Assembly: GCF_025629245.1 (NCBI RefSeq)
Contig: NZ_JANZXN010000016.1
Coordinates: 1 to 37,574, forward strand
Direction: 5' to 3'
DNA from: Natronobiforma cellulositropha
GTDB taxonomy: Archaea > Halobacteriota > Halobacteria > Halobacteriales > Natrialbaceae
Length of the DNA: 37,574 nt
The translations under genes were made by a program, and so were the position numbers. Under the pieces are notes generated by a model that worked only from the letters and a program-made list of their open reading frames with translations, did not search any database and was not told where the DNA came from. Shown here one piece after another: positions 1 through 37,196 of this stretch. Positions within the stretch are counted from its first letter, which is position 1. The number at the start of each line of letters is the position of its first letter.

Positions 1-285
1 CAGAGCGAGGAGGGTCGCCGCAATCCGGTCGGGATTTCTGTTCGCTGGAAGCGTCTGATAGCCACGCTCGCGATAGACGGTGTACTTCGCGAAGAGGCGA
101 GCCTCGGCTATCGATTCTTTTTCTTCGATTGTCCGCTCCTCTGCGTTGTCTGGGTACCCATTTTGCTTGTGGTATACTACCTTCCAATCGTCTTTTCTGA
201 TCGACATTTCGTGTACTACACCCGAATTATCGACAACGTCTATACCAACCCCTTCTTGGTTTTCACCAACCACCTCACCTTTCAT
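1..285 (-). CDS. Cassette partner protein, headless left cassette (3' part outside window)
   Basis: Partial gene of the partner family that follows every DUF4157 gene in this window; 95 codons are visible and the C-terminus lies beyond base 1. The reading begins MKGEVVGENQEGVGIDVVDN and contains the family hallmarks: a VDNSGVVHE segment near residue 22, a YHKQNGYP segment near 40 and a YRERGY motif near 76. The ATG overlaps the stop of the preceding tail gene (TGA 282-284 inside ATGA), so translation is probably coupled to it. The first 150 bases are AT-richer than the surrounding DNA, as in the other partners. No function is known to me. From the context it could be an immunity protein or a loading/chaperone partner for the upstream tail. 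Confidence 0.8.
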   Translation of the reverse strand, partial: MKGEVVGENQEGVGIDVVDNSGVVHEMSIRKDDWKVVYHKQNGYPDNAEERTIEEKESIAEARLFAKYTVYRERGYQTLPANRNPDRIAATLLAL

Positions 286-875
286 TTATTTTCACCACGA
301 ACCCCCGTTGGGTCTTCTTCGCTAGATACCTCGTGGCTCTGTCTCACAGACTCAACAGCTCCAGCCCACGCCTCAGCGAGCTGTTTGTATCCAACGTCGA
401 CCAGCAGGTCGTACACCTGACCTGCGCTCGCGCTACTGAGCGACCGAATTGGTTCGGCTCCAACGCGCTTGATGACCGCCGCCGCCCCGACGTGTGCGCC
501 AGCGGCGACTTCCGTCTGACCCGTGGTCGTCCAGATTGGACCACTTACGCCGACGAGTGCTAGCAAGTTCGCCGCTGCCCCGACGACCGTATCACTCTCC
601 GCCCGGTCCTCGACCATGTCACGACCACTATCTCTGACTGCTTCTCGAGGGTCGAGGCGCTCGAGCAGTGCCCCGAGGGTACTGTCGTCGGCTGTCGTTC
701 CGTCGAACTCCCCGTCTTCGAAGGCATCGAGCGTCGACTGTTGCGGGCCGTCGTCACCGATCGACAGACGCTGCACGTGAACGTCCATCCCTAATCGGTG
801 AGCTACCACCGGCACCTCTCCCTCGAGTGCCTTCCTCGCCACCTCGTCCGCTTCGCGCTCGAGTAGACACACCAT
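282..875 (-). CDS. Headless DUF4157-cassette tail (orphan C-terminal module)
   Basis: A 197-codon frame that keeps only the last piece of the DUF4157 domain: [13 protein letters not shown], then the [13 protein letters not shown] boundary at about residues 27-37. A variable tail of about 160 residues follows. The HELAH part is missing entirely. The tail has a hydrophobic run (VVGAAANLLALVGVSG) and a second Ala/Gly-rich stretch. It starts at an ATG only 8 bases after the stop of the previous partner gene and overlaps the next partner gene by ATGA, so the three genes read as one transcript. This is the layout of the orphan toxin-tail plus immunity modules found downstream of Rhs and CdiA genes. 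It may be translated by coupling or be a silent reservoir for recombination. No enzymatic motif is recognised. Confidence 0.65.
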   Translation of the reverse strand: MVCLLEREADEVARKALEGEVPVVAHRLGMDVHVQRLSIGDDGPQQSTLDAFEDGEFDGTTADDSTLGALLERLDPREAVRDSGRDMVEDRAESDTVVGAAANLLALVGVSGPIWTTTGQTEVAAGAHVGAAAVIKRVGAEPIRSLSSASAGQVYDLLVDVGYKQLAEAWAGAVESVRQSHEVSSEEDPTGVRGENK

Positions 876-883
876 CGAGACAC

Positions 884-1780
884 CTAAGAGGGGTCCCAGG
901 AGGTGATCGTCGCCTCCGGCGACCAGTACTCCTCGTAGAGGTCACAGAACGTCTGTGCCTGGAAACCGTCGTAGGTGCCCCAGCCCTGTGCCTGAAACGC
1001 TACTGGTGGCGTCAGCCCCATCAACAGAAAGCGGTCGCGAATCTGGTAGGCCAGGTGCGAGACGAGGTAGTGCTGGAAGGAGTCGACCTCGTCGGGATCG
1101 AACGCCAGCAGTTCGATCCGCGCGTCCGGTGCCCGCTCGAGCGGCTGGTCGGTGGGAATCGTCTGCTGGCTACCACGGCCGTCGTTGTACAGATAGCCCA
1201 GCCCAGAAACCGCCTCGAGGTCGAACTCGAGTGCGTCGAGGTCGTCGTCGGTCAGGTCACCGGCCTGGGTGAACAGCGAGGAGTCGAGTGGGCCATCGAA
1301 GTGAGCCCGAAACTGCTCGAGAACCGGCGGGTCGAACTCGAGCGGGTCCGGTTCGAGATAGAGGTCCTGCCGGTAGACGATCGCCCCGTCCGGATCGGCG
1401 TCGGCGAACGGCAACTCGACGCTCGAGCCGTCGTAGTGGCTCCGTAACTGCCTCTCGAGGTCGCCGAACGACGCCTCGAACGACGCACTCGAGAGGCGCG
1501 TCAGTGCCAACAGGGCGGCGAGAATCCGGTCGGGGTTCTCCGTCGACGGCACGGTGTCGTAGCCGCGCTCGCGGTAGACGTACCACTGTGCGTAGCGGCG
1601 GGCCTGTTCACCGTACTCGGTCTGGGTTCTGGTGCGCTTGGCAGGGTTGTTGGGATATGGGTCGCACTTATGGAACCTAATCTCACCAGTAGCCGTCATC
1701 TCGATCAAATGCTCTACATCATTGTTATCGATGATGCTGAGGCCAACACGTTCGGATTCTCCTGTTATGAGTGCGTCCAT
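884..1780 (-). CDS. Cassette partner protein, left full cassette
   Basis: 298-aa acidic protein without signal peptide or membrane segment, starting 2 bases after the stop of the left DUF4157 gene. The N-terminal third is shared with the other partners (IIDNNDVEHLIEM near residue 17, QARRYAQWYVYRERGY near 59-74, FGDL near 107). The middle is variable. The C-terminal part is again conserved (PLERAPDARIELL, then a YQIRDRFLLMGLTPP stretch near 250). The closest relative in the window is the partner at 33628-34533; both begin MDA-I-TGES. Constant ends with a variable middle suggest a common fold adapted to different tails. An immunity protein or an effector chaperone/adaptor are the main options; the sequence alone does not decide. 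Confidence 0.8.
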   Translation of the reverse strand: MDALITGESERVGLSIIDNNDVEHLIEMTATGEIRFHKCDPYPNNPAKRTRTQTEYGEQARRYAQWYVYRERGYDTVPSTENPDRILAALLALTRLSSASFEASFGDLERQLRSHYDGSSVELPFADADPDGAIVYRQDLYLEPDPLEFDPPVLEQFRAHFDGPLDSSLFTQAGDLTDDDLDALEFDLEAVSGLGYLYNDGRGSQQTIPTDQPLERAPDARIELLAFDPDEVDSFQHYLVSHLAYQIRDRFLLMGLTPPVAFQAQGWGTYDGFQAQTFCDLYEEYWSPEATITSWDPS

Positions 1781-1782
1781 TG

Positions 1783-3240
1783 CTACTCTCTCCTCGATCG
1801 TGCGTCGCCAGTCGATTCTGTATCACCGTACCAGGTGCCTGCACGAATTTCTTTTTCGATCTGTTTTGCGCGCTCGGCCAGCGAGCCGCTCGAGTTCGAC
1901 CAGATCTGACGGACATCGTCCCAGCCAGAGATCGCTCTGCGGCGAACGCGGCCGACTGCCTGGGTTCCGATCTCGTCGACATCGACGCCTTTCGCCTTCC
2001 CTGCGAGCGAAGAGGCTGCAACGAACGTTCCGAGTGTCGTCGCCGAGAGGACGCCCTTGACCACCGACCAGGAGAGGCTATCCCACCGGTCGGTACTGAT
2101 GTTGCCGTGTAACTCGAGTCGCTGGTCCTCGGTGAGACCGACATCCGAGAGGTCGGCATTGACCGATGCAGCCAGGGCGTCGACTTCGGATTTGAGATCG
2201 CCGATAGACGGACCACGTTGTGCCAGTTCGGCCGCAACGGGTGACTCGGAAGCAGCGGCCTGCACCGACTCTTTCTTTTTCACCTGGCTCTGAACGTCCT
2301 GTTTCTCGAGGACCTCACCGGCGACACCGTGGAGGAAGCCGATGCGGTTGGCGTTCTGGCCCTGTCGGAACTCACTGACCTCACCGCTGTCGTTCTCGCT
2401 CTCGAAGAGTGCCAGCGCCTCGAACGTCTTCTCCTCTGGAATTCGTTGTACGTGGACATCCATCCCCAGTCGGTGAGCTACCACTGGCTCCTCACCTTCG
2501 AGTGCCTTCCTCGCCACCTCGTCCGCTTCGCGCTCGAGCGCTGGGTCGGGGTCGATCACCAGCGAACTCCCCTCCTGCGGGAGCATACTGATCTGACCGC
2601 CGGTCTGCTGTCGCACGTGAGCCAGCTCGTGCGCGAGCAGATATTTGCCTTCAGGACTCTCCGGCTTGTACTCGCCGCGGTTGAACACCACGTGGTTACC
2701 AGTCGTGAAGGCGCGTGCCTCGAGTGCGCTCGCGGCTTTCGCCGCTTCTGGACCGGTGTGAAGCTGCACGTCACTGAAGGACTCGCCCATGCGCGTTTCC
2801 ATCTCCTCGCGGACGGAACCCTCGAGCGGCTTTCCAGGCTGTGAAATCACGCGCCGAACCACGTCGGGTGTCGCGGTCTCACCTGCTAAATCGCTCTCGG
2901 CCTGCGCCTCCACCGAGCGCATGGCACTCGGTGTGTCGAGTTCGACGCCCGCCGCCCGGCTCCGCGCTCGAGCGACGCGAACATGCTCGCCCGTCGGCGT
3001 GTTTATGCCTTCAGGCAGTTCACCGCGTTCGCCCCACCGTTGGACCTGCTCGAAGCCACGGGTCTGGATCAGCCGGTCGAGCTGGGCCGCCTGCTCGGGC
3101 GAGGGTCGCAGTACGCTCGAGAGATACTGGTGTGGGCGAGTTCCGCCCTGTGTCTGGGGCTGCGCTCGAGCGCGCCGTGTTCGTTCGTTGTTCTCACTAT
3201 CGTCGTTCGACCGGTCGCGCCGATCACGGTCGAAACTCAC
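1783..3240 (-). CDS. DUF4157 polymorphic toxin-like protein, left copy
   Basis: 485 aa. Residues 1-130 are a charged, conserved leader (SFDRDRRDRSNDD at the start). Residues about 131-245 form the DUF4157 domain, with the zinc-protease-like motif HELAH at 204-208 and a possible third ligand in EREAD at 236-240. The constant part ends at HVQR (263-266). A unique tail of 219 residues follows, with a lysine/glutamine-rich stretch, then a hydrophobic Gly/Ala run (VVKGVLSATTLGTFVAASS) and a basic helical end. The start is GTG: an in-frame TGA lies two codons upstream, and GAGGTG sits six bases before the GTG. DUF4157 is known from polymorphic toxins and from effectors of extracellular contractile injection systems. 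No catalytic motif is recognised in the tail; a membrane-active role is a guess. Confidence 0.85.
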   Translation of the reverse strand: MSFDRDRRDRSNDDSENNERTRRARAQPQTQGGTRPHQYLSSVLRPSPEQAAQLDRLIQTRGFEQVQRWGERGELPEGINTPTGEHVRVARARSRAAGVELDTPSAMRSVEAQAESDLAGETATPDVVRRVISQPGKPLEGSVREEMETRMGESFSDVQLHTGPEAAKAASALEARAFTTGNHVVFNRGEYKPESPEGKYLLAHELAHVRQQTGGQISMLPQEGSSLVIDPDPALEREADEVARKALEGEEPVVAHRLGMDVHVQRIPEEKTFEALALFESENDSGEVSEFRQGQNANRIGFLHGVAGEVLEKQDVQSQVKKKESVQAAASESPVAAELAQRGPSIGDLKSEVDALAASVNADLSDVGLTEDQRLELHGNISTDRWDSLSWSVVKGVLSATTLGTFVAASSLAGKAKGVDVDEIGTQAVGRVRRRAISGWDDVRQIWSNSSGSLAERAKQIEKEIRAGTWYGDTESTGDARSRRE

Positions 3241-26201: not shown

Positions 26202-28781
26202 ATGTCCACACCAGACCCAGACGAGCAGACGGCAGATCGTACAGGCGACGACTCCCCACCGGTCGGCTCACTCAGCCGTCGGCGGATCCTCCAGAGCGCG
26301 GGTGCACTGGGGCTGGCGCTGGCCGCCGGTTCCGAGAGCGTGGTCGCTCAGCCAACCGGAAACGGGGGCGACACCTCCGGTGCGGACCTCCAGTGGGAGG
26401 AGGTCGGAGCCGACGCCGCGAATCCCACGGCCATCGATTTCGACCCCCAGGGGCGGCTCTGGATCGCGAACAAGGAGGGACGCGTCGACGTGTTCGACCC
26501 CGAGAGTGGTGAATCGACGGTGGCGCTGACCCTCTCGGTGTTCGAGGAGTTCGAACACGGCCTGGTCGGGCTGACGGTCGATCCCGACTTCGCCGAGAAC
26601 AACTGGATCTTCGTCTTCTACTCGCCCGTCGAGGGCGACCTGGATCCGACGTTTGGCGGCACCTACAACCTGGTCTCGCGCTTTACGGTCGACGGCGACG
26701 AGATCGATCCGGCGTCGGAGGAGGAGATCATCCGAATCGAAGGCCAGCGCGAACAGCCGTTTCACATCGGCGGCGGTCTCGACTTCGGGCCGGAGGGCGC
26801 ACTCTACATCGCCCTGGGTGACAACACGCACGCGCTCGGGAACCACGTCTCGTACTACCTCCACCCACAGGACAGCGCGAACACCGGCGACTCGCGCGGG
26901 ACCTCGATGGACACTTCGGACCTGCGCGGATCGATCCTCCGGATCGTCCCCGAAGCCGACGGCTCGTACTCGATTCCCGAGGGTAACCTCTTTCCCGAAG
27001 ACGAGTACGCCGCCGAGATCGACGACGGAACCGTCCGCCCGGAGATCTACGCGATGGGCTTTCGAAACCCCTACCAGATCGACGTCGACCCAGAAACCGG
27101 CTGGCTCTACTCGGCGGGGCAGGCCACCCAGGCGACGGACTGGGACGCAAACTACGGCCCGCCGGGTCTCGGTCCCGTTTTCCGGTTCCGCGAACCCGGC
27201 GTTCTGGGCTGGCCCATGTTCCGCGGCGGACACGCCTACATCCGCCCGGACGAGGTCGTCAGCGAGTACCAGCACCTCGTGGGCGAGCAGTACGACCCGA
27301 GCGGGCCGATCAACGCCTCGCCGCGCAACGACGGTCTCAGGGAACTCCCGCCGGTCAGCGAGGACGCCCTGCTGGCGTACGCCCCCGCCGAGGGCAACTG
27401 GGACGCCTACCTCTCACCGCCTGCGGGCGGTCCCTGGGAGGTCCCCGACGACCCGCCGGGCTATCCGGAGCTGACGGACTACTCGCCGATCGCCGGAACG
27501 CTGATCCGGGCCGACGAGACCGCCATCGACGGCATTCCCGACCACTACGACGGGACGTTCGTCTTCGGTCTCTGGAACACCGGCGACCTCTACCTGATGT
27601 CGTTCGACGACGAGGGCGAGATGACCAGCCTCGAGCCCTTCCTCACCGACATGCCGAACGCGAGCTTTACGGACGCCGCGATGGGACCGGACAACCGGCT
27701 CTACATCGTCGACTGGGGCGGCCAGGACTTCACCGGTGCGAACAACAGGATCTACCGACTCGAGGCCGCAGACGACACGGAACCCGAGATCGAGACCGAG
27801 TTCGTCCTCGAAGGAGAGTTCAGCGGCTGGTACGGCGTCTCCCCGCCAGAGATCGCCGGCGAGGAGAACCCGACGCTCGAGCTCGAGCCCGGAGCGGCCT
27901 ACCGCGTCGAGTGGACGAACACCGACGGCATTCCCCACAACTTCGAGATCCGCGACGAAGACGAGACGGAACTGCTCGCGACCGAGTTGATCGGCGAGGA
28001 GGGCGAGACGCAGACGGTGGAGTTCGTCGCGACCGAGGAGATGGACCACTACCTCTGTACGCCCCACCCGAACACGATGCTCGGACAGATCGGCGAGGGC
28101 GAGGACGACGAGGAGCCAGAACGCGAGGACAACCTGGGTGAGCCCGTCGAGTCGATCACCGTCGAGATGACCGCCGGAAACGAGTTCGTCCCGCGAATCG
28201 CCCACGTCGAGGTGGGCGGGACGGTCACCTGGGAGTTCGAGGGCGGCCAGCCCCACGACACCGTCGCCTACCACCCCGACACCTACGGCGACCAGGAGCG
28301 GATTCCGGACGGGGCAACGCCCTGGGCGAGCGACGTCCTCGGCGCTGGCGGGACCTTCGAACACACCTTCGAGGAACCCGGCGTCTACGACTACGTCTGC
28401 ACCCCCCACGAGCCAGCGGGCATGGTCGGAACCGTCGTCGTCGGCTGGCCCGATCCCGACGGCCAGCCAGCGCTCGAGCCCGTCTCGTCTGCCATCCACG
28501 ACAACGCCGCGGAGATACTCGAGACCGACGGCGAGGACATCGCGGCGGTCCTGGAAGCGGGACCCGCACTCGAGTTGAACGGCTACGAGCCGGGACCGTA
28601 CGATGGCAGCGACCTCTACTACGACGTTACGGGTGACGGGAACCTCGGGTTCAACGACGTGGTGACGTTCTTCGAGCACGTCAACGACCCCGTCGTCCAG
28701 AACAACCCCCAGTACTTCGACTTCTCGGGGTCGGGAAGCGTCGGCTTCAACGACGTGGTGGCGCTGTTCGAGCAGGTGTAA
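26202..28781 (+). CDS. Tat-exported PQQ-dependent sugar dehydrogenase-like protein with two cupredoxin domains and a dockerin-like tail
   Basis: 859 aa. SRRRILQ near residue 25 marks a Tat signal. Residues about 60-540 form a soluble glucose/sorbosone dehydrogenase-type propeller (FHIGGGLDFGPEGALYIALG, MGFRNPYQIDVDPETGW). Two cupredoxin domains follow, each with a full type-1 copper set: GIPHNFEI with LCTPHPNTMLG, and QPHDTVAY with VCTPHEPAGMVG. The last 60 residues hold two dockerin-like calcium repeats (DVTGDGNLGFNDVVTFF and DFSGSGSVGFNDVVALF). Expected role: extracellular sugar oxidation passing electrons to attached blue-copper domains. It has its own promoter. The three-part fusion is unusual. 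Confidence 0.88.
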   Translation: MSTPDPDEQTADRTGDDSPPVGSLSRRRILQSAGALGLALAAGSESVVAQPTGNGGDTSGADLQWEEVGADAANPTAIDFDPQGRLWIANKEGRVDVFDPESGESTVALTLSVFEEFEHGLVGLTVDPDFAENNWIFVFYSPVEGDLDPTFGGTYNLVSRFTVDGDEIDPASEEEIIRIEGQREQPFHIGGGLDFGPEGALYIALGDNTHALGNHVSYYLHPQDSANTGDSRGTSMDTSDLRGSILRIVPEADGSYSIPEGNLFPEDEYAAEIDDGTVRPEIYAMGFRNPYQIDVDPETGWLYSAGQATQATDWDANYGPPGLGPVFRFREPGVLGWPMFRGGHAYIRPDEVVSEYQHLVGEQYDPSGPINASPRNDGLRELPPVSEDALLAYAPAEGNWDAYLSPPAGGPWEVPDDPPGYPELTDYSPIAGTLIRADETAIDGIPDHYDGTFVFGLWNTGDLYLMSFDDEGEMTSLEPFLTDMPNASFTDAAMGPDNRLYIVDWGGQDFTGANNRIYRLEAADDTEPEIETEFVLEGEFSGWYGVSPPEIAGEENPTLELEPGAAYRVEWTNTDGIPHNFEIRDEDETELLATELIGEEGETQTVEFVATEEMDHYLCTPHPNTMLGQIGEGEDDEEPEREDNLGEPVESITVEMTAGNEFVPRIAHVEVGGTVTWEFEGGQPHDTVAYHPDTYGDQERIPDGATPWASDVLGAGGTFEHTFEEPGVYDYVCTPHEPAGMVGTVVVGWPDPDGQPALEPVSSAIHDNAAEILETDGEDIAAVLEAGPALELNGYEPGPYDGSDLYYDVTGDGNLGFNDVVTFFEHVNDPVVQNNPQYFDFSGSGSVGFNDVVALFEQV

Positions 28782-29158: not shown

Positions 29159-29449
29159 ATGGCGTTCACCGTCCTCCTCGCCGAGCAGCCGCGCGAATTT
29201 CTAACAGACGCCGACGAAAAGACGGGTCGGATCGTTCGGACGAACCTCGAGAAGCTAGCGAGTGAACCGTATCCCCGTCCCGGTACCGGACGCGGTGATC
29301 GGGAAAAACTCCCCGTCGACGGGCGGGAGTTGTACCGAATGCACATCGGGCGAACGTACACCGCGTTCTACACGATTCACGACGGAGCGGATGAGGTTCG
29401 CGTTCGTGAAATTCTGCCGATCGACGACGCCCACAAGCGGTACGGCTGA
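29159..29449 (+). CDS. RelE/ParE-family toxin
   Basis: 96 aa. The RelE/ParE fold is indicated by FLTDADEKTGRIVRTNLEKL, the basic loop GRGDREKLPVDGRELYRMHI and the closing strand YTAFYTIHDGADEVRVREI with a final ILPIDDAHKRY. Family members cut mRNA on the ribosome or poison gyrase; which applies is not clear. It follows its antitoxin by 5 bases and stands just before the first right-hand cassette. Confidence 0.88.
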   Translation: MAFTVLLAEQPREFLTDADEKTGRIVRTNLEKLASEPYPRPGTGRGDREKLPVDGRELYRMHIGRTYTAFYTIHDGADEVRVREILPIDDAHKRYG

Positions 29450-29477: not shown

Positions 29478-29504
29478 CTCGAGTGTTCGATTATCAACAG
29501 TTAA
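29478..29504 (+). promoter_or_regulatory. 27-bp conserved cassette upstream element, right copy 1
   Basis: Same CTCGAGTGTTCG ... CAACAGTTAA arrangement; the TTAA starts 63 bases before GTG 29564. Here no small membrane-protein gene overlaps it, so its conservation is not explained by coding. Confidence 0.6.
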
Positions 29505-29563
29505 GAAGAGCGAGCAGTAACGATTCGATAATTACCAATGCAACGATACACGAGGTGGGGCGT

Positions 29564-30736
29564 GTGAGTTTCGACCGGGACCGGCGCGACCGGTCGAACG
29601 ACGACAGTGAGCGGAACGAGCACGTCCGGCGCGCTCGAGCGGGGCCACATCAGTATCTCTCGAGTGTACTACGACCCTCGCCCGAGCAGGCGGCCCAGCT
29701 CGACCAGCTAATCCAGACCCGCGGATTCGATCAGGTCCAGGCGTGGGGCGAACGCGGTGAGTTGCCCGAAGGCTGTAACACGCCGACGGGCGAGCAGGTT
29801 CGTATCGCTCGAGTGCGGAGCTCCCTGGGAGCGGGCGTCGAACTCGACACCGAGAGTGCCATGCGCTCGGTGGAGGCGCAAGCCGATACTGGTCTCGCGG
29901 GTGAGACGGCCACACCCGAGGTCGTCCGGCGCGTGCTCTCGAGACCGGGGAAACCGCTCGAGGGAGCCGTCCGAGACGAGATGGAGCAACGGATGGGCGA
30001 CTCGTTTTCGGATGTACAGCTACACACTGGACCGGAGGCCGCGAAGGCGGCGAGCGCGCTCGAGGCACGCGCTTTCACGACCGGGAATCACGTGGTGTTC
30101 AACCGCGGGGAGTACGACCCTGAGAGCGCGGAAGGGAAATATCTGCTCGCGCACGAATTAGCTCACGTGCGACAGCAGACCGCTGGCCGAATCAGTTTGC
30201 TCTCGCAAGAGCGCCGTTCACTGGTGATCGAACCGAACCCAGCACTCGAGCGCAATGCCACGGGGTACATCGTCCGGGGGAGCGAACTCGAAATTCAGCG
30301 CCTCGCCACGACGACGGTCCACGTCCAGCGAGTCGATAAAACTCGCCGAGAGGTGCTCCAGGGCGATGTCTCGACGGAGGAGATAGAGGCAGGAATCGAA
30401 GACACTGACCTCCTGAGCGTCGGTCCCGACCGGTTGCGCGACGCCTACAAGTACGCCGAGTACGCGGTCACACTCGGCACGACTCAGAGCGTTGTCCAGC
30501 CGCTCGTCTCGGAGTACGGACTGACTCAGCCCGAAGCGATGGCGGTGACGCTCGCCGTCGGCGGAACCATCCACGTCGGCAAAGACCGACTCCACCGCGA
30601 AGACATCTACCTCACGCTCGAGGTCGCTCGAGTGCTCGGACAAGAAGAGCGAGTGATCGAGTTCTTCCGGAGGATGGATATCGACATGCCGTGGGATGTT
30701 GAGGACCCATATGATGGTGGTGGTGAATCACCATGA
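29564..30736 (+). CDS. DUF4157 polymorphic toxin-like protein, right copy 1
   Basis: 390 aa from GTG 29564 with GAGGTG upstream; an ATG 81 bases earlier lies inside the conserved upstream element and is not preferred. The constant region is shorter in the leader. It keeps the DUF4157 core with HELAH near residue 197. However, it replaces the EREAD motif by ERNATGYIVRG, losing the probable third metal ligand. Two boundary-like motifs occur (LEIQR and VHVQR at about 252-256). The 134-residue tail starts TRREVLQGDVSTEEIE, resembling the tail start of right copy 3, and holds AMAVTLAVGGTIHVGK. It overlaps the partner gene by ATGA. It may be catalytically inactive. Confidence 0.85.
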   Translation: MSFDRDRRDRSNDDSERNEHVRRARAGPHQYLSSVLRPSPEQAAQLDQLIQTRGFDQVQAWGERGELPEGCNTPTGEQVRIARVRSSLGAGVELDTESAMRSVEAQADTGLAGETATPEVVRRVLSRPGKPLEGAVRDEMEQRMGDSFSDVQLHTGPEAAKAASALEARAFTTGNHVVFNRGEYDPESAEGKYLLAHELAHVRQQTAGRISLLSQERRSLVIEPNPALERNATGYIVRGSELEIQRLATTTVHVQRVDKTRREVLQGDVSTEEIEAGIEDTDLLSVGPDRLRDAYKYAEYAVTLGTTQSVVQPLVSEYGLTQPEAMAVTLAVGGTIHVGKDRLHREDIYLTLEVARVLGQEERVIEFFRRMDIDMPWDVEDPYDGGGESP

Positions 30737-31773
30737 AAGCGGATGTCGATGGAGATGACGGTGAATATGTGAAGATCTATGTCACAGACCAAAATGACGT
30801 AGAGCATAATCTTACTGTCGAGATAATGTCTGGAAGAATATCATACCACAAACAGGATTACTACCCAAACAGAACGTCCAAACAATCGAGTAACGATGTA
30901 GTCTATCTCAGTCAAGTCCAGGAGTATGCTAAGTATACGGTTCAGCGGACGTTAGGATACCCAACGCTCCCCCCACGCCTAACCCCGGAGTGGATTCCCT
31001 ACACGCTCGGCGCGGTGTTCGGTCTCGAGTTCGATAGTTTCGAACGACAGTTCGGTCCCTACGCCCAGCAGTACCACAGTGCGCTCCACCCCAAGGTTCC
31101 CCCCATCGTGGAGATGCCCGAGGAGACCGCCCCCGTCGGCGGTATCGTCTACCGCGCCGACGTGTTTCTCGCCCTCGAGTTCGACGCCTATCTCGAGGAT
31201 CCAGTGGCTGCGTCACCGATAGAAGCCTTCGCGGGAACCACCGACGCGTACGACCTCTACGAGGCGCTGGCGGCCGAACTCGAGGCGCGCCTGCCGCCGG
31301 ACACGGCACCGATCACCGAAGTGTCGGCGCTCGATCTCCAGTACCAGCGCCGCGCCAACGACGGCAGTGTCGAGGAGCCGGTCGTTGGCGAGCGCAGTCA
31401 CACCAGCGCGGGACCACCCGACGCACAGCTCCAGATGACGCCTCCACAGGCCACCCTCGAGTCGGAACTGACGGCCGAGATCGTTCAGGGTCTGCTCTGT
31501 CACCACCTCCAGTGTCAGGTCCGCGATGCGTATCTCCGGCTCGGACTCGAGCCCCCGGAGGCGTTTCGCGTCCTCGGCCAGGGCTTCGCCGAACAGACGA
31601 TGCACTACCAGCACGCCGATGTCTACCCGCCGTACCACCTCACCGACGCCGAGATTGAAGGCTACCGGCCGCCGGGTATCGAACACGGGGCACTGGCGAG
31701 CGGAGGGTTCGCCGGGCCGGGCCAGCCCGGCCCACTGCTGCGGCGCATCGTCCGCGCGCTGTTTGGCCGGTAG
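30733..31773 (+). CDS. Cassette partner protein, right copy 1
   Basis: 346 aa, the longest and most divergent partner. The N-terminus keeps TDQNDVEHNL and YHKQDYYP, but YRERGY has become VQRTLGYPTL. The conserved C-terminal block is recognisable (LQCQVRDAYLRLGLEPPEAF). It has an extra C-terminal extension ending in a Gly/Pro-rich linker and a basic amphipathic helix (PLLRRIVRALFGR). The first 200 bases are clearly AT-rich compared with the rest of the gene. The ATG overlaps the stop of its DUF4157 partner, so the two are co-translated. Divergence matches that of its paired DUF4157 protein. Confidence 0.8.
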   Translation: MKADVDGDDGEYVKIYVTDQNDVEHNLTVEIMSGRISYHKQDYYPNRTSKQSSNDVVYLSQVQEYAKYTVQRTLGYPTLPPRLTPEWIPYTLGAVFGLEFDSFERQFGPYAQQYHSALHPKVPPIVEMPEETAPVGGIVYRADVFLALEFDAYLEDPVAASPIEAFAGTTDAYDLYEALAAELEARLPPDTAPITEVSALDLQYQRRANDGSVEEPVVGERSHTSAGPPDAQLQMTPPQATLESELTAEIVQGLLCHHLQCQVRDAYLRLGLEPPEAFRVLGQGFAEQTMHYQHADVYPPYHLTDAEIEGYRPPGIEHGALASGGFAGPGQPGPLLRRIVRALFGR

Positions 31774-31885: not shown

Positions 31886-32287
31886 TCACTCGCGAAGCAT
31901 CGTCTGGAGGAAGGTGAGAATCGCGCCGAAGAGCGTCCCGAGGACGAAGGTGAACGCGTCACCGCTGAGTGCGCCCTGGGCAGTCATCCCGGCGGCGATC
32001 AGCACGACGGCGAGAAAGGTCCCCGCGGCGGTGTAGACGATCCGGCGCTGGTGGGCGAAGTGGCGGCGCTGGGCGTCGTGGTCGACGCGTTTCGTCTCTC
32101 GAGTCTCCTCGAGATACGACGTGATCAGCCCGGTGATGTCGCCGAGGTGGTCCAGAATCGGCTGGAGGTCGGAGGCCTGGTCGTCGGCGCGGTCGGGCGA
32201 CTCGTCGTACTCGAGTGTCGAGTGCGCTTTCGGCTCTTCGACGCCGCTGAAGAGGGGCTTGTACCCCTCGCTCGAGTGTTCGGTCAC
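31886..32287 (-). CDS. Two-helix membrane protein with coiled-coil head, copy A
   Basis: 133 aa from GTG 32287 (TTG 32290 also possible). An acidic N-terminus of about 38 residues is followed by a helical, probably coiled-coil region (ILDHLGDITGLITSYLEETR). Two membrane helices (TAAGTFLAVVLIAAGMTAQG and FTFVLGTLFGAILTFLQTML) close the protein. From about residue 39 on it is identical to copy B at 34615. It faces away from the next DUF4157 gene and its start lies inside the 27-bp element. Possible roles are self-protection at the membrane or a release factor (holin-like topology). Both are guesses. Confidence 0.75.
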   Translation of the reverse strand: MTEHSSEGYKPLFSGVEEPKAHSTLEYDESPDRADDQASDLQPILDHLGDITGLITSYLEETRETKRVDHDAQRRHFAHQRRIVYTAAGTFLAVVLIAAGMTAQGALSGDAFTFVLGTLFGAILTFLQTMLRE

Positions 32288-32297
32288 CAACAGTTAA
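32271..32297 (+). promoter_or_regulatory. 27-bp conserved cassette upstream element, right copy 2
   Basis: CTCGAGTGTTCG ... CAACAGTTAA with TTAA 63 bases before GTG 32357. It also contains the start codon of the divergent small membrane-protein gene, so the two genes share this control region. Confidence 0.6.
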
Positions 32298-32356
32298 GAT
32301 GAGCGAGTAGTAACGCTTCGATAATTACCAATGCAACGACACACGAGGTGGAGCGT

Positions 32357-33625
32357 GTGAGCTTCGACCGGGACCGACGCGACCGCTCGAACGACGACAG
32401 TGAGCGAAACGAACGAACACGGCGCGCTCGAGTGCAGGCCCAGGCCGCGCGCGGAGCGCGCCCCCACCACCATCTCTCGAGCGTGCGACAGCCCTCACCC
32501 GAGCACGCGGCCATCCTCGATCAGATGATCCTGAGGCGTGGTCTCGAGGACGTCCAGGAGTTGGGCGAACGGGGTGAACTCCCGCGCGGCTGTAACACGC
32601 CGACGGGCGAACAGGTCCGTGATGCTCGAGTGCGTAGCTCCTGGAAAGCGGGTGTCGAACTCGATACGCCGAGTGCGATGCGTTCGGTCCAGGCGCAGGC
32701 GGAGAGTGATCTGGTAGGTGAGACAGCCACACCAGAGGTGGTGCGGCGGGTGATCTCCCAACCAGGAAAGCCGCTCGAGGGAGCCGTCCGCGAGGAGATG
32801 GAAGCGCGGATGGGGGACTCGTTTTCTGACGTACAGCTGCACACGGGGCCGGAGGCTGCGAAAGCAGCGAGTGCGCTCGAGGCACGGGCGTTCACGACCG
32901 GCAATCACGTGGTGTTCAACCGCGGGGAGTACGACCCAGAGAGTGCGGAGGGGAAGTACCTGCTCGCGCACGAGTTAGCTCACGTCCGCCAGCAGACCGG
33001 TGGCCAGGTCAGTATGCTTCCGCAGGAAGGGAGTTCGCTCGTGATCGATCCGGACCCCGAACTCGAGCGTGAAGCTGACGAGGTAGCGAGGAAGGCGCTC
33101 GATGCAGAAGCGATTCCGATCGCTCGCCTTCCGTCGGGTGTCGAGGTTCACGTCCAACGGTTCCAGGGACCGGGTGGTGTCCACTCGAGCGGCGGGACGC
33201 TTCCGGCCCATCAGGATGCCAAGGAGAAATTTCATACCGAGGACGGCCAGTTGCGCTCACCGCACCGTCCAGCAGGACCGTCAGTAACGCTGACTGATAT
33301 CAAAGCGGAGTACGGTCTCAGTGACCACGAGTTGACACTCCTGTACGAGGACCATTTCGGCCAGCAAATCCAGACAGACACCGAGTACGAGTTCTCCGAT
33401 TCGGTCGAAGCAGCGGCATTGAGCCTGACCAAAGCGGCCCTAGCGGATGTCGTTCCGGGGCTGAGTTTCGCCTACGCTGCCCACTCGGGATACAAAGCTT
33501 GGGCGGACCAGACCGATAGCAATGTGAAAGACCGACTCAAACAACTCATCGGCTCCGCCATCGAACACGCGAAGACTGGAGCAGGTGACTCGACTGGTGA
33601 TGCAGTATCCAGAGAGGATTTGTAA
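32357..33625 (+). CDS. DUF4157 polymorphic toxin-like protein, right copy 2
   Basis: 422 aa from GTG 32357 (GTG 32348 is in frame but overlaps the GAGGTG ribosome-binding site). Leader MSFDRDRRDRSNDD-type, DUF4157 domain with HELAH near 205-209 and EREAD near 237, boundary HVQR at 265-268. The 154-residue tail is unlike the others: His/Gly-rich start, then a helical part (TLTDIKAEYGLSDHELTLLY) and a hydrophobic stretch (ALSLTKAALADVVPGLSFAY). The constant region lies in the 2729-base-offset repeat shared with right copy 3, while the tails do not match. The partner gene follows after 2 bases. Confidence 0.86.
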   Translation: MSFDRDRRDRSNDDSERNERTRRARVQAQAARGARPHHHLSSVRQPSPEHAAILDQMILRRGLEDVQELGERGELPRGCNTPTGEQVRDARVRSSWKAGVELDTPSAMRSVQAQAESDLVGETATPEVVRRVISQPGKPLEGAVREEMEARMGDSFSDVQLHTGPEAAKAASALEARAFTTGNHVVFNRGEYDPESAEGKYLLAHELAHVRQQTGGQVSMLPQEGSSLVIDPDPELEREADEVARKALDAEAIPIARLPSGVEVHVQRFQGPGGVHSSGGTLPAHQDAKEKFHTEDGQLRSPHRPAGPSVTLTDIKAEYGLSDHELTLLYEDHFGQQIQTDTEYEFSDSVEAAALSLTKAALADVVPGLSFAYAAHSGYKAWADQTDSNVKDRLKQLIGSAIEHAKTGAGDSTGDAVSREDL

Positions 33626-33627
33626 AT

Positions 33628-34533
33628 ATGGACGCAATTATCACCGGCGAATCCAAGCGGGTTGGCCTCAGCGTGCTCGACAACAACCAAGTAGAACACC
33701 TGATCGAAATGGACGAGTTTGGCAATATCAAATATCACGATCAGGATGGCTACGCCGACAGCCCGAACGAACGAACAGACGAAGAGAACGAACACGTCAA
33801 CCAGGCACGTCGCTACGCCAGATACCACGTCTACCGCGAACGCGGCTACGAGACGCTCGAGCGGGTCGACAATCCCGACTGTATTCTGGCGGCGATGATC
33901 GCCGTTGGGTGTCTTTCTGGCTCTGCATTCGAACGTCACTTCGGTGATCTCTACGACCGACTTCGAGAGCACGTCAGTGGCTCGAGGATCGACCTACCGG
34001 TTGATGGGGCCAATCCCGATGGGATCGTCGTTTACCGAAAAGACCTCTACCTCGAGCCAGACCCAACTGCCGTCCAAAAGGCTGCCAGGACTGCCCTCAC
34101 GACGTACGGCGCAGAACCCGGAGACTCGATCGACGGCGAAACGCTCACCGCGGCACTCGAGAAACTCGCCACCGACTCCACGCTCGAAGGCGCTCTCGCG
34201 TTCGAGATCGAGGCAACCTCTCCGTGTTATGCACTCTACAACGACGGCTACAACAACGAACACGTCGAACCCGTCGGCCAGCCACTCGAGCGAGAGCCCG
34301 ACGCGCGAGTCGAACCGATGCCGATCAGTGTCGACAGTCTACCAGCGTTTCAGGAGTACCTCCTCGCACACCTTGCTTACCAAGTACGCGATTGCTACGT
34401 CTGTATGGGTGTCACGCCACCAGCCGGATTCAGAGATACCGGCTACGGGAAGTACCGGTGTTCGCTCTACCAACAGTCGACCGACCTCTACGAGAACTAC
34501 TACGACGAGTCCGAGTCGATCGACTCCTGGTGA
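33628..34533 (+). CDS. Cassette partner protein, right copy 2
   Basis: 301 aa, beginning MDAIITGESKRVGLSVLDNN. It is very close at the N-terminus to the left partner (884-1780) although their tails differ. VYRERGYETL near 74, FGDLYDRL near 107, then a variable middle of about 90 residues, and the C-terminal block PLEREPDARVEPMP, YQVRDCYVCMGVTPP. No signal peptide or membrane helix. N-terminal similarity across unlike tails argues that part of the protein serves a shared function, for instance binding the constant head or delivery machinery. Confidence 0.82.
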   Translation: MDAIITGESKRVGLSVLDNNQVEHLIEMDEFGNIKYHDQDGYADSPNERTDEENEHVNQARRYARYHVYRERGYETLERVDNPDCILAAMIAVGCLSGSAFERHFGDLYDRLREHVSGSRIDLPVDGANPDGIVVYRKDLYLEPDPTAVQKAARTALTTYGAEPGDSIDGETLTAALEKLATDSTLEGALAFEIEATSPCYALYNDGYNNEHVEPVGQPLEREPDARVEPMPISVDSLPAFQEYLLAHLAYQVRDCYVCMGVTPPAGFRDTGYGKYRCSLYQQSTDLYENYYDESESIDSW

Positions 34534-34614: not shown

Positions 34615-35016
34615 TCACTCCCGGAGCATCGTCTGGAGGAAGGTGAGAATCGCGCCGAAGAGCGTTCCGAGGACGAAGGTGAACGCATCACCGCTGAGTG
34701 CGCCCTGGGCGGTCATCCCGGCGGCGATCAGCACGACAGCGAGAAAGGTCCCCGCGGCGGTGTAGACGATCCGGCGCTGGTGGGCGAAGTGGCGGCGCTG
34801 GGCGTCGTGGTCGACGCGTTTCGTCTCTCGAGTCTCCTCGAGATAGGACGTGATCAGCCCGGTGATGTCGCCGAGGTGGTCCAGAATCGGCTGGAGGTCG
34901 GAGACCTGGTCGTCGTCGCGGTCGGGCGACTCGTCGTACTCGAGTGTCGAGCGCGCTGTCGGCCCTTCGTCGCCGCTGAACAGCGGCTTGTACTCCTCGC
35001 TCGAGTGTTCGATCAT
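34615..35016 (-). CDS. Two-helix membrane protein with coiled-coil head, copy B
   Basis: 133 aa from ATG 35016. Same architecture as copy A; differences are confined to roughly the first 38 residues (for example FSGDEGPTARSTLEY against FSGVEEPKAHSTLEY). The identical remainder includes both membrane helices and HFAHQRRIVYTAAG. The copies lie only before right copies 2 and 3, not before right copy 1 or the left cassette, so they are not essential for every cassette. Confidence 0.75.
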   Translation of the reverse strand: MIEHSSEEYKPLFSGDEGPTARSTLEYDESPDRDDDQVSDLQPILDHLGDITGLITSYLEETRETKRVDHDAQRRHFAHQRRIVYTAAGTFLAVVLIAAGMTAQGALSGDAFTFVLGTLFGAILTFLQTMLRE

Positions 35017-35026
35017 CAACAGTTAA
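35000..35026 (+). promoter_or_regulatory. 27-bp conserved cassette upstream element, right copy 3
   Basis: CTCGAGTGTTCG ... CAACAGTTAA, TTAA 63 bases before GTG 35086; also holds the start of the divergent small membrane-protein gene. Confidence 0.6.
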
Positions 35027-35085
35027 GATGAGAGAGCAGTAACGCTTCGATAATTACCAATGCAACGACACACGAGGTGGAGCGT

Positions 35086-36192
35086 GTGAGCTTCGACCGG
35101 GACCGACGCGACCGCTCGAACGACGACAGTGAGCGAAACGAACGAACACGGCGCACTCGAGCGCAGGCCCAGACCCAGCGCGGGGCGCGGCCGTACCAGT
35201 ACCTGAACCGAGTGGGCCAACCCTCGCGCGACCAGGCGGCCATCCTCGATCAGATGATCCTGCGGCGTGGTCTCGAGAACGTCCAGGAGTTGGGCGAACG
35301 CGGTGAACTCCCCGAAGGCTGTAACACGCCGATGGGCGAGCAGGTTCGCGTCGCTCGAGTGCGTAGCTCCTGGAAAGCGGGCGTCGAACTCGACACCGAG
35401 AGCGCGATGCGCTCGGTGGAGGCGCAGGCCGAGAGCGACCTGGCAGGTGAGACCGCGACACCCGACGTGGTGCGGCGGGTGATTTCCCAGCCAGGACGGC
35501 CGCTCGAGGGATCCGTCCGCAAAGAGATGGAAGCGCGGATGGGGGACTCGTTTTCTGACGTACAGCTGCACACTGGGCCGGAGGCCGCGAAGGCGGCGAG
35601 CGCGCTCGAGGCGCGGGCGTTCACCACCGGGAACCACGTGGTGTTCAACCGCGGCGAGTACGATCCGGAGAGTCCCGACGGGAAATATCTGCTCGCGCAC
35701 GAATTAGCTCACGTGCGACAGCAGACTGGTGGTGCGATTAGTATGCTCCCCCAGGAAGGGAGTTCACTGGTCATCGATCCCGACCCCGAACTCGAGCGTG
35801 AGGCCGACGAGGTGGCGAGGAAGGCACTCGAAGGTGAGGAGCCAGTGGTGGCTCACCGACTCGGGCCCAATGTCTCGATCCAGCGTACGCCTGAAGTGAG
35901 TCGCCGCGGGGTGCTCAAAGGCGACTTCGGCCTGGAAGAAGTCGAAGAAGCCACGGACGACCTCGAGTTTGGCGAGGTCGATCACAGCAAAGTCGCCGCT
36001 GCGGGGCTCACTTCGCTCCTCCCCGTCATCGGTCCGATGCTGGATCAGTACGTCGATCAGAAGTTTGCACCACAGCAGTTGCACGCCAGGCTTCGACAGA
36101 TCGATCCACCTGAAGAGTGGGTCGAACAGACTGCCAGGCGGGCAGTCACCATGGTTGATAATATCGCAACCAGTGGAACACGGTTCGATTAA
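35086..36192 (+). CDS. DUF4157 polymorphic toxin-like protein, right copy 3
   Basis: 368 aa from GTG 35086. Constant head with HELAH near 205-209, EREAD near 237 and a variant boundary VSIQR ending at 267. The short 101-residue tail starts SRRGVLKGDFGLEEVEE, which resembles the tail start of right copy 1. It continues with a hydrophobic helix (AAAGLTSLLPVIGPMLDQYV) and an amphipathic C-terminus. The gene ends 5 bases before its partner. Head and upstream region are the repeat shared with copy 2. Confidence 0.86.
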   Translation: MSFDRDRRDRSNDDSERNERTRRTRAQAQTQRGARPYQYLNRVGQPSRDQAAILDQMILRRGLENVQELGERGELPEGCNTPMGEQVRVARVRSSWKAGVELDTESAMRSVEAQAESDLAGETATPDVVRRVISQPGRPLEGSVRKEMEARMGDSFSDVQLHTGPEAAKAASALEARAFTTGNHVVFNRGEYDPESPDGKYLLAHELAHVRQQTGGAISMLPQEGSSLVIDPDPELEREADEVARKALEGEEPVVAHRLGPNVSIQRTPEVSRRGVLKGDFGLEEVEEATDDLEFGEVDHSKVAAAGLTSLLPVIGPMLDQYVDQKFAPQQLHARLRQIDPPEEWVEQTARRAVTMVDNIATSGTRFD

Positions 36193-36197
36193 CCACA

Positions 36198-37196
36198 ATG
36201 AATGCAGCAATCATTGACCAAGACGAACGCGGCATTGGTGTTAGAATCACGGACAATAACGGCGTGAAACACACTGTCGCGATCGGTTTTGATGGGAGTT
36301 TGCAGGGGCACTCACAGAACGGCTATCCTGATGACCCAGCCGAGCGCTCGATGATCGACGAAGTCGAACCCATCAACCAGGCCCGGCGCTTCGCGAAGTA
36401 CTGGGTCTACCGTGAGCGCGGTTACGACACCCTCTCGCTCAACGAAAACCCTCACCGCATCGCCGCGGTGGCGCTCGTCCTCGCGGGCCTCTCTGCAGAA
36501 ACCTTCGAAGAACACTTCACCGACCTCTACTTGCAGGTCGCCAGCCACTACGGCGAGACCGAACCATCCGTGACACTACCGGAGGGTGCCCGCCCGACAC
36601 ACGTCACCTACCGAACGGACGTCTACCTCGGTCTCGATGACGACGCGCTCGCAACGCTCGCACGTGCAGTCACCGACCCTGATGCGACTGCCTTCCTCCG
36701 AACAGTGCACAACGGCGACGTTACCCACCGCTCTTTCGAGGCGGTTCTCACACCCATACTCGAGGCGGGCGAGGCTGACGCCGTCGGCGATCTGTCCGCC
36801 GACGACCTTCTCGAGGCCGTCTCAGGCATCCACGTCCACTGGGACGACAGCGCTGGTGTCTACCACACCGAATGGGGCGACCAGCCATCGCTCGAGCGTG
36901 ATCCAGATGCACGAATCGACCTGTTGCCGTACGACCCTGCGTCGTTCGCGGAGTTTCGCGCCCAACTCATTAGAATCCTCTACTGTCAGGTTCGGGATTG
37001 CTACCTCGGCATGGGAATCGCGCCGCCCGATGCCTTCCGACTCCAGGGTCACGGCATCCACGAGTTCGCCACCTGGTACGAGCACTACGACTTCTACGAG
37101 CGCTACCACGACCCGAACGCCACAGTCTCGACCTGGTACGACGAACACACACCCGAGGGCGTCTACGACCTGCCTGCATTTGCAGGCGGTGAATGA
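36198..37196 (+). CDS. Cassette partner protein, right copy 3
   Basis: 332 aa. N-terminus ITDNNGVKHTVAI near 17, GYPDDPAER near 42, QARRFAKYWVYRERGYDTL near 59-77. The middle is longer and unlike the other partners. The C-terminal block is SLERDPDARIDLLPYD with YCQVRDCYLGMGIAPPDAFR near 265. It ends in an acidic tail. Stop TGA at 37194-37196 is followed after three bases by the truncated DUF4157 copy. Function as for the family: immunity or adaptor, undecided. Confidence 0.82.
   Translation: MNAAIIDQDERGIGVRITDNNGVKHTVAIGFDGSLQGHSQNGYPDDPAERSMIDEVEPINQARRFAKYWVYRERGYDTLSLNENPHRIAAVALVLAGLSAETFEEHFTDLYLQVASHYGETEPSVTLPEGARPTHVTYRTDVYLGLDDDALATLARAVTDPDATAFLRTVHNGDVTHRSFEAVLTPILEAGEADAVGDLSADDLLEAVSGIHVHWDDSAGVYHTEWGDQPSLERDPDARIDLLPYDPASFAEFRAQLIRILYCQVRDCYLGMGIAPPDAFRLQGHGIHEFATWYEHYDFYERYHDPNATVSTWYDEHTPEGVYDLPAFAGGE

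Follow-up and report, generated by a model that had tools for sequence, protein, structure and literature searches.

We analysed one whole contig (the window, 37,574 nt, NZ_JANZXN010000016.1) of the haloarchaeon Natronobiforma cellulositropha, whose genome comprises 3.76 Mb in 60 contigs. Our subject is a 301-residue protein encoded at 33628–34533, directly downstream of a toxin gene, together with the family to which this protein, hereafter the partner, belongs. The toxin is built of an eCIS_core head (PF13699, formerly DUF4157), a tail, and a short C-terminal tag. We asked which parts of the partner follow which parts of the toxin, and what this implies for partner function.

Toxin–partner pairs on the contig

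The initial annotation had placed five partners on this contig. All five are present and are homologous far above chance. A search of the own genome with the partner under study returned the proteins at 884–1780 (E 2.6e-85), 36198–37196 (E 4.5e-51), 30733–31773 (E 2.0e-23) and 1–285, which is cut by the contig end (E 1.6e-18), and each of the five starts a few bases from the stop codon of the toxin upstream. The family is larger than the five first recognized, however: the same search gave 53 matches including fragments, or about 45 copies in total, most of which sit directly downstream of eCIS_core toxins.

The family had also been described as having constant ends and a variable middle, and this description holds in part. 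Among 37 full-length partners from the genome, conserved N- and C-terminal motifs are visible, the C-terminal block reading QIRDCYL..MG..PP, and the middle, at about residues 150–215, is the least conserved part, but the N-terminal block as a whole is not constant. Partners whose toxins share a tail class have near-identical bodies, whereas their residues 1–45 vary from copy to copy, and residues 1–45 of a given type recur with other tails. Pfam and NCBIfam, including their curated immunity and type VI secretion system (T6SS) chaperone families, gave no credible partner match up to E 1, and the sole matches were isolated ones far under cut-off.

The four full-length toxins of the window all carry eCIS_core (E ~1e-31, 109 bits against a cut-off of 22), and the genome holds 34 eCIS_core stretches. 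Behind full-head units come cassettes whose heads are truncated, and every such cassette has a tail and a partner of its own (contigs C2, C60 and others). The window breaks off inside a partner (position 1) and inside a truncated head (37574), as would happen if repeated cassettes had collapsed during assembly; the true number of pairs in this genome may be higher than counted.

The genome also encodes a contractile injection system (CIS), in a cluster on C60 with one sheath gene (PF04984/PF17482), a hub-like protein and an AAA ATPase. The partner was found in 14 of 146 genomes; eCIS_core was present in all 14 and the sheath in 12, and the co-occurrence was significant for both (Fisher p 2.5e-16 and 3.4e-11, respectively).

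Table 1. Features of the window. Codes give partner residues 15 and 25; AF2, AlphaFold2; pLDDT, predicted local distance difference test; pTM, predicted template modelling score.
Feature	Coordinates	Strand	Evidence
Partner under study, 301 aa	33628..34533	+	Own-genome homologues; AF2 model pLDDT 90.5, pTM 0.90
Partner residues 1–45, N-terminal four-stranded sheet, proposed tag reader	33628..33762	+	Covaries with toxin tip, not tail
Specificity residue 15 (Ser)	33670..33672	+	Ridge z 18.2
Specificity residue 25 (Leu)	33700..33702	+	Ridge z 20.3
Partner body, tracks toxin tail	33763..34530	+	Windows 111–250 vs tail r 0.58–0.69
Toxin upstream of the partner under study: eCIS_core head, tail, tag	32348..33625	+	PF13699 E 8e-32
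Toxin C-terminal tag, last ten residues TGDAVSREDL, SL-code type	33593..33622	+	Motif and N-terminal type shared, 20 pairs, 14 tail classes
Partner, code Y15/N25; toxin tag DPYDGGGESP	30733..31773	+	
Toxin of the 30733 partner, eCIS_core, DKTRRE-class tail	29483..30736	+	PF13699 E 1.1e-31
Partner, code R15/T25; toxin tag SGTRFD	36198..37196	+	
Toxin of the 36198 partner, eCIS_core, PEVSRR-class tail	35077..36192	+	PF13699 E 1e-31
Partner, code S15/L25; toxin tag TGDARSRRE	884..1780	-	
Toxin of the 884–1780 partner, eCIS_core, PEEKTF-class tail	1783..3240	-	PF13699 E 8.9e-32
Partner cut by contig end, code D15/E25; toxin tag PTGVRGENK	1..285	-	
Orphan toxin cassette, truncated head (tail and tag)	282..875	-	Match limited to last part of head profile
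Orphan toxin cassette, truncated head, cut by contig end	37200..37574	+	

Two separate matches between toxin and partner

To compare toxins with partners, we assembled 168 non-redundant adjacent pairs out of the own genome, haloarchaeal genomes of known name (Natrialba, Natrinema, Haloferax, Halomicrobium, Halohasta, Halopiger and others) and a later set of 52, allowing a gap of −30 to +60 nt between the two genes. Observed gaps ran from −25 to +15 nt and were mostly −4 to +6. Toxins of one tail class diverge in their last ~10–20 residues, and these ends recur on unrelated tails and across genera, each time with the same type of partner start. The tag TGDAxSRR, for example, pairs with the start MDAIITGESxRxGLSxxDNN..EHLIEM, and the tag xGxGGxV with MKAVITGE...GVNLxDN..EHV.

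Over all 168 pairs, tail similarity correlated with similarity of the partner body (0.737) and tag similarity with that of the partner N-terminus (0.463), while the cross-terms were low (tail–tag 0.073, tail–N-terminus 0.096, tag–body 0.093, N-terminus–body 0.181). Between unrelated tails, the correlation of tag with N-terminus was 0.456, whereas 500 permutations reached 0.063 at most. We also predicted tags for the 52 later pairs, each time borrowing the tag from whichever pair had the closest N-terminus among those with an unrelated tail. The prediction fell within the top 5% for 35 of them (2.6 expected), and for 24 of the 26 with close N-termini.

Each match maps to a bounded region. On the toxin side, the tag signal drops from 0.456 at positions −9..−1 to 0.119 at −21..−13; on the partner side, it lies at 0.23–0.39 across residues 1–45 and at 0.05 in residues 46–55. 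The tail signal, in turn, peaks at partner windows 151–210 (r 0.68–0.69) and is low over residues 1–45 (r 0.09). This profile supports the earlier suggestion that the partner middle reads the tail. It does not support the companion idea of an adaptor that uses a constant part to bind the head common to the toxins, or a loading apparatus, since the N-terminal part behaves as a variable reader of the tag. The gene pair is thus a mosaic of head, tail and tag, followed by partner reader and partner body. A Thr-Gly linker, often ACTGG in the DNA, precedes many tags and is common to unrelated tails, and is a possible left-hand recombination point.

A two-residue code in the partner N-terminus

To locate the tag signal, we ran a ridge regression with tag similarity as the response and identity at the individual N-terminal positions as predictors. 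Residues 15 and 25 stood out, and every other N-terminal position had z < 5. The same two residues had the largest coefficients whichever tag length between 6 and 12 was used, and in each of three disjoint data sets. Variability alone does not explain their rank, since position 30 is more variable and yet has a z of 2.4. Among couples of partners that are 50–70% identical at the other variable positions, tags were similar in 86% when residues 15 and 25 agreed, as opposed to 6% when both differed.

Written as residue 15 followed by residue 25, the recurrent combinations are SL with GDAxSRR (20 pairs, spread over 14 tail classes), NV or NI with xGxGGxV (15), LK with [VT]DF (9), DE with TG[VL]R (8), RT with TRF (6), YD or YN with DPYxGG (6), YW with DELGR (5), KQ with TKF (5), and HK with SEGLT (4). 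The code is imperfect, as some RG-, RR- and RK-type tags disagree among themselves. The N. cellulositropha genome alone has 22 codes among its 36 adjacent pairs.

Tag and partner start lie only a few tens of base pairs apart and move as a block between unrelated tails. The two could therefore co-travel as neighbours on one recombining stretch of DNA, with no contact between their products. We regard this explanation as very improbable. Where unrelated tails carry common tags, identical residues are encoded by different codons in 57% of cases, compared with 61% expected at saturation; such near-saturated synonymous codons argue that the tag match is old and has been kept at the protein level. 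Moreover, the signal is confined to the two partner residues, and these predict the tag alone, not toxin positions −18..−10, the partner body, or partner residues 46–60. A co-travelling DNA block would not give such a pattern.

The AF2 model of the partner is confident and has strands at residues 2–8, 12–17, 23–28 and 34–39, followed by helices and another small region of strands. Judged by strand register, residues 15 and 25 are expected to lie opposite each other in the hairpin formed by strands 12–17 and 23–28, and by alternation most other positions with z > 3 (4, 6, 11, 17, 27, 29 and 35) would fit the same face. Comparison with the PDB gave no Foldseek match below E 0.2, and the best VIA Z of 5.5 covered residues 1–76 only and corresponds to a generic beta-meander.

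This arrangement is reminiscent of the docking domains of nonribosomal peptide synthetases and polyketide synthases that join a short linear motif to a beta-hairpin (PMC9113145). There, too, a C-terminal motif of the upstream protein is matched to a small N-terminal beta domain of the downstream protein and few residues decide specificity, although in our case the match is a statistical one. In contrast to those domains, the partner N-terminus is predicted to be a four-strand meander followed by helices, the proteins joined are a toxin and its partner, and a second key links tail and body.

Partners as candidate two-key immunity proteins

The reading we favour, to which we assign a probability of about 0.7, is that partners are two-key immunity proteins, with a body directed against the toxin tail and a two-residue reader directed against the swappable C-terminal tag. 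The initial annotation had offered, as its second option, a scaffold for immunity whose recognition surface varies, and of its proposals this one best fits the covariation. Partners would act in the cytoplasm as antidotes to toxins injected by a haloarchaeal T6SS-like CIS. The first key would be the body, from about residue 60 to the end, matching the tail, which is probably the killing part. The second would be the N-terminal four-stranded sheet, which through residues 15 and 25 would match a motif within the final ~9 toxin residues. Since the toxin gene ends with the tag and the partner gene begins with the reader, a single exchange changes both; moving the block onto another tail and body would switch the specificity of toxin and antidote jointly and leave them matched. 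New matched pairs might arise in this way that the antidotes of rivals do not fully neutralise.

How a toxin and its antidote can change together without an unprotected intermediate is an open question, and one block carrying both tag and reader would change both in one step. We give roughly even odds to the broader proposal of a combinatorial system, in which two freely exchanged modules (tail with body, tag with reader) and the two-residue code set specificity. A few dozen parts would then yield hundreds of pairs that do not protect against one another, and a new matched pair would take one recombination step. If this is true, the specificity of archaeal warfare could be read as a code and predicted from sequence in different haloarchaeal genera. 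The two-residue code is directly testable.

Precedent for antidotes in this gene position comes from Zachs et al. 2024 (PMC11566945). That study reports that, in Haloferax volcanii, genes downstream of DUF4157 toxins prevent toxicity, as shown for four Halogeometricum pairs, and that Haloferax elongans, whose T6SS-like CIS was imaged, lyses H. volcanii on contact. Our pairs are laid out like those toxin–immunity pairs, with a DUF4157/eCIS_core toxin, then a partner gene, and a CIS cluster in the genome. H. elongans itself carries pairs of the present family (L055, L088). The shared partner family, the C-terminal tag and the specificity code, by contrast, are described here and not in the available parts of that account. 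Among plasmid records matching the partner, none came from Halogeometricum.

A further arrangement of partners occurs on contig C46 (L045, 1759–9459), where eight divergent partners in tandem, alternating between two subtypes and uninterrupted by toxins, come after an eCIS_core protein with a ~440-residue tail. This toxin-free array looks like an immunity bank and fits immunity better than loading.

The toxins fall into 56 tail classes, and most of these unrelated classes hold a hydrophobic stretch rich in Ala, Gly, Val and Leu. The median best 19-residue Kyte–Doolittle (KD) value is 1.42 for tails versus 0.41 for heads. A single membrane-directed killing mechanism may be common to the tails and would explain how one partner scaffold could serve all of them. 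Chaperoned T6SS effectors, however, carry such hydrophobic stretches as well, and the toxin and partner genes overlap or almost touch. Both features would suit a loading chaperone or adaptor that shields the hydrophobic tail, reads the tag and delivers the toxin to the machine, with protection as a side effect. We consider this role unlikely. The sheath gene is single in every sampled sheath-bearing genome, so the tags cannot be addresses of different machines, an idea we dropped on this ground, and loading by one machine would not call for more than 20 tag types. Partners are, in addition, present in the toxin-free array on C46. Finally, the genes downstream of such toxins act as antidotes in H. 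volcanii, in an assay of toxicity, not of loading (PMC11566945).

Even with immunity granted, the tag–reader match could serve pairing fidelity inside the producer, preventing mispairing among dozens of paralogous toxins and antidotes, and have nothing to do with escape. The many codes within one genome suit this idea, as does the finding that same-tail pairs in the genome carry different codes, except for one couple in the partner array. Nevertheless, we find it doubtful. Same-tail paralogues with differing tags have near-identical bodies, so mispairing among them should be harmless, and insulation alone would not favour the use of one code on many tails, as seen for SL.

Several points weigh against two-key immunity. 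Contact by members of this partner family, neutralisation by them, and escape from rivals' immunity as the driver are all steps that we infer from sequence comparison. Code sharing among same-tail pairs was not significantly below chance under shuffling (1 observed, 1.4 expected), which leaves the escape argument without statistical support. The permutation z values (Table 1) are inflated by kinship among the sequences, although the contrast between positions is unaffected. Lastly, a read-through model of tag and partner as a single chain left the tag at pLDDT < 50 and was uninformative.

The 'dual recognition' between colicin or pyocin DNases and their immunity proteins (Im) is treated in literature cited in PMC4548480. 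Those systems and ours have in common one immunity scaffold that combines a conserved part with variable specificity residues. In the DNases both contacts fall within a single nuclease domain, whereas our pairs match two toxin parts, each inherited separately, to two partner parts that are likewise inherited separately. Polymorphic toxins (Zhang et al. 2012, PMC3482391) similarly have a common head, swappable tails, and truncated orphan toxin–partner cassettes behind a full unit, but differ from the present system, in which the partner scaffold is conserved over unlike tails and has a code of its own. No such tag–reader code was found in the open-access literature, which was incompletely covered.

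Elsewhere, at L038 (3702–6125, − strand), an 808-residue helical-repeat-like protein has a partner-like domain at residues 490–766 and adjoins another partner. A 594-residue apparent fusion in L076 has a masked gap inside and is not evidence of fusion.

Within the window, two near-identical 135-residue proteins with a C-terminal hydrophobic hairpin are encoded at 31889–32293 and 34618–35022 (− strand), divergently upstream of two of the toxins, and have weak DUF3040 similarity under cut-off. We considered this small membrane protein as an alternative immunity gene and dropped it, as no further copy occurred in the DNA searched. Immediately before the first toxin unit lies a ParE-type toxin gene (PF05016, just over cut-off; 29159–29449, + strand). 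The gene at 26202–28781 (+ strand) encodes a large glucose/sorbosone dehydrogenase that has two plastocyanin-like domains as well as an apparent Tat signal.
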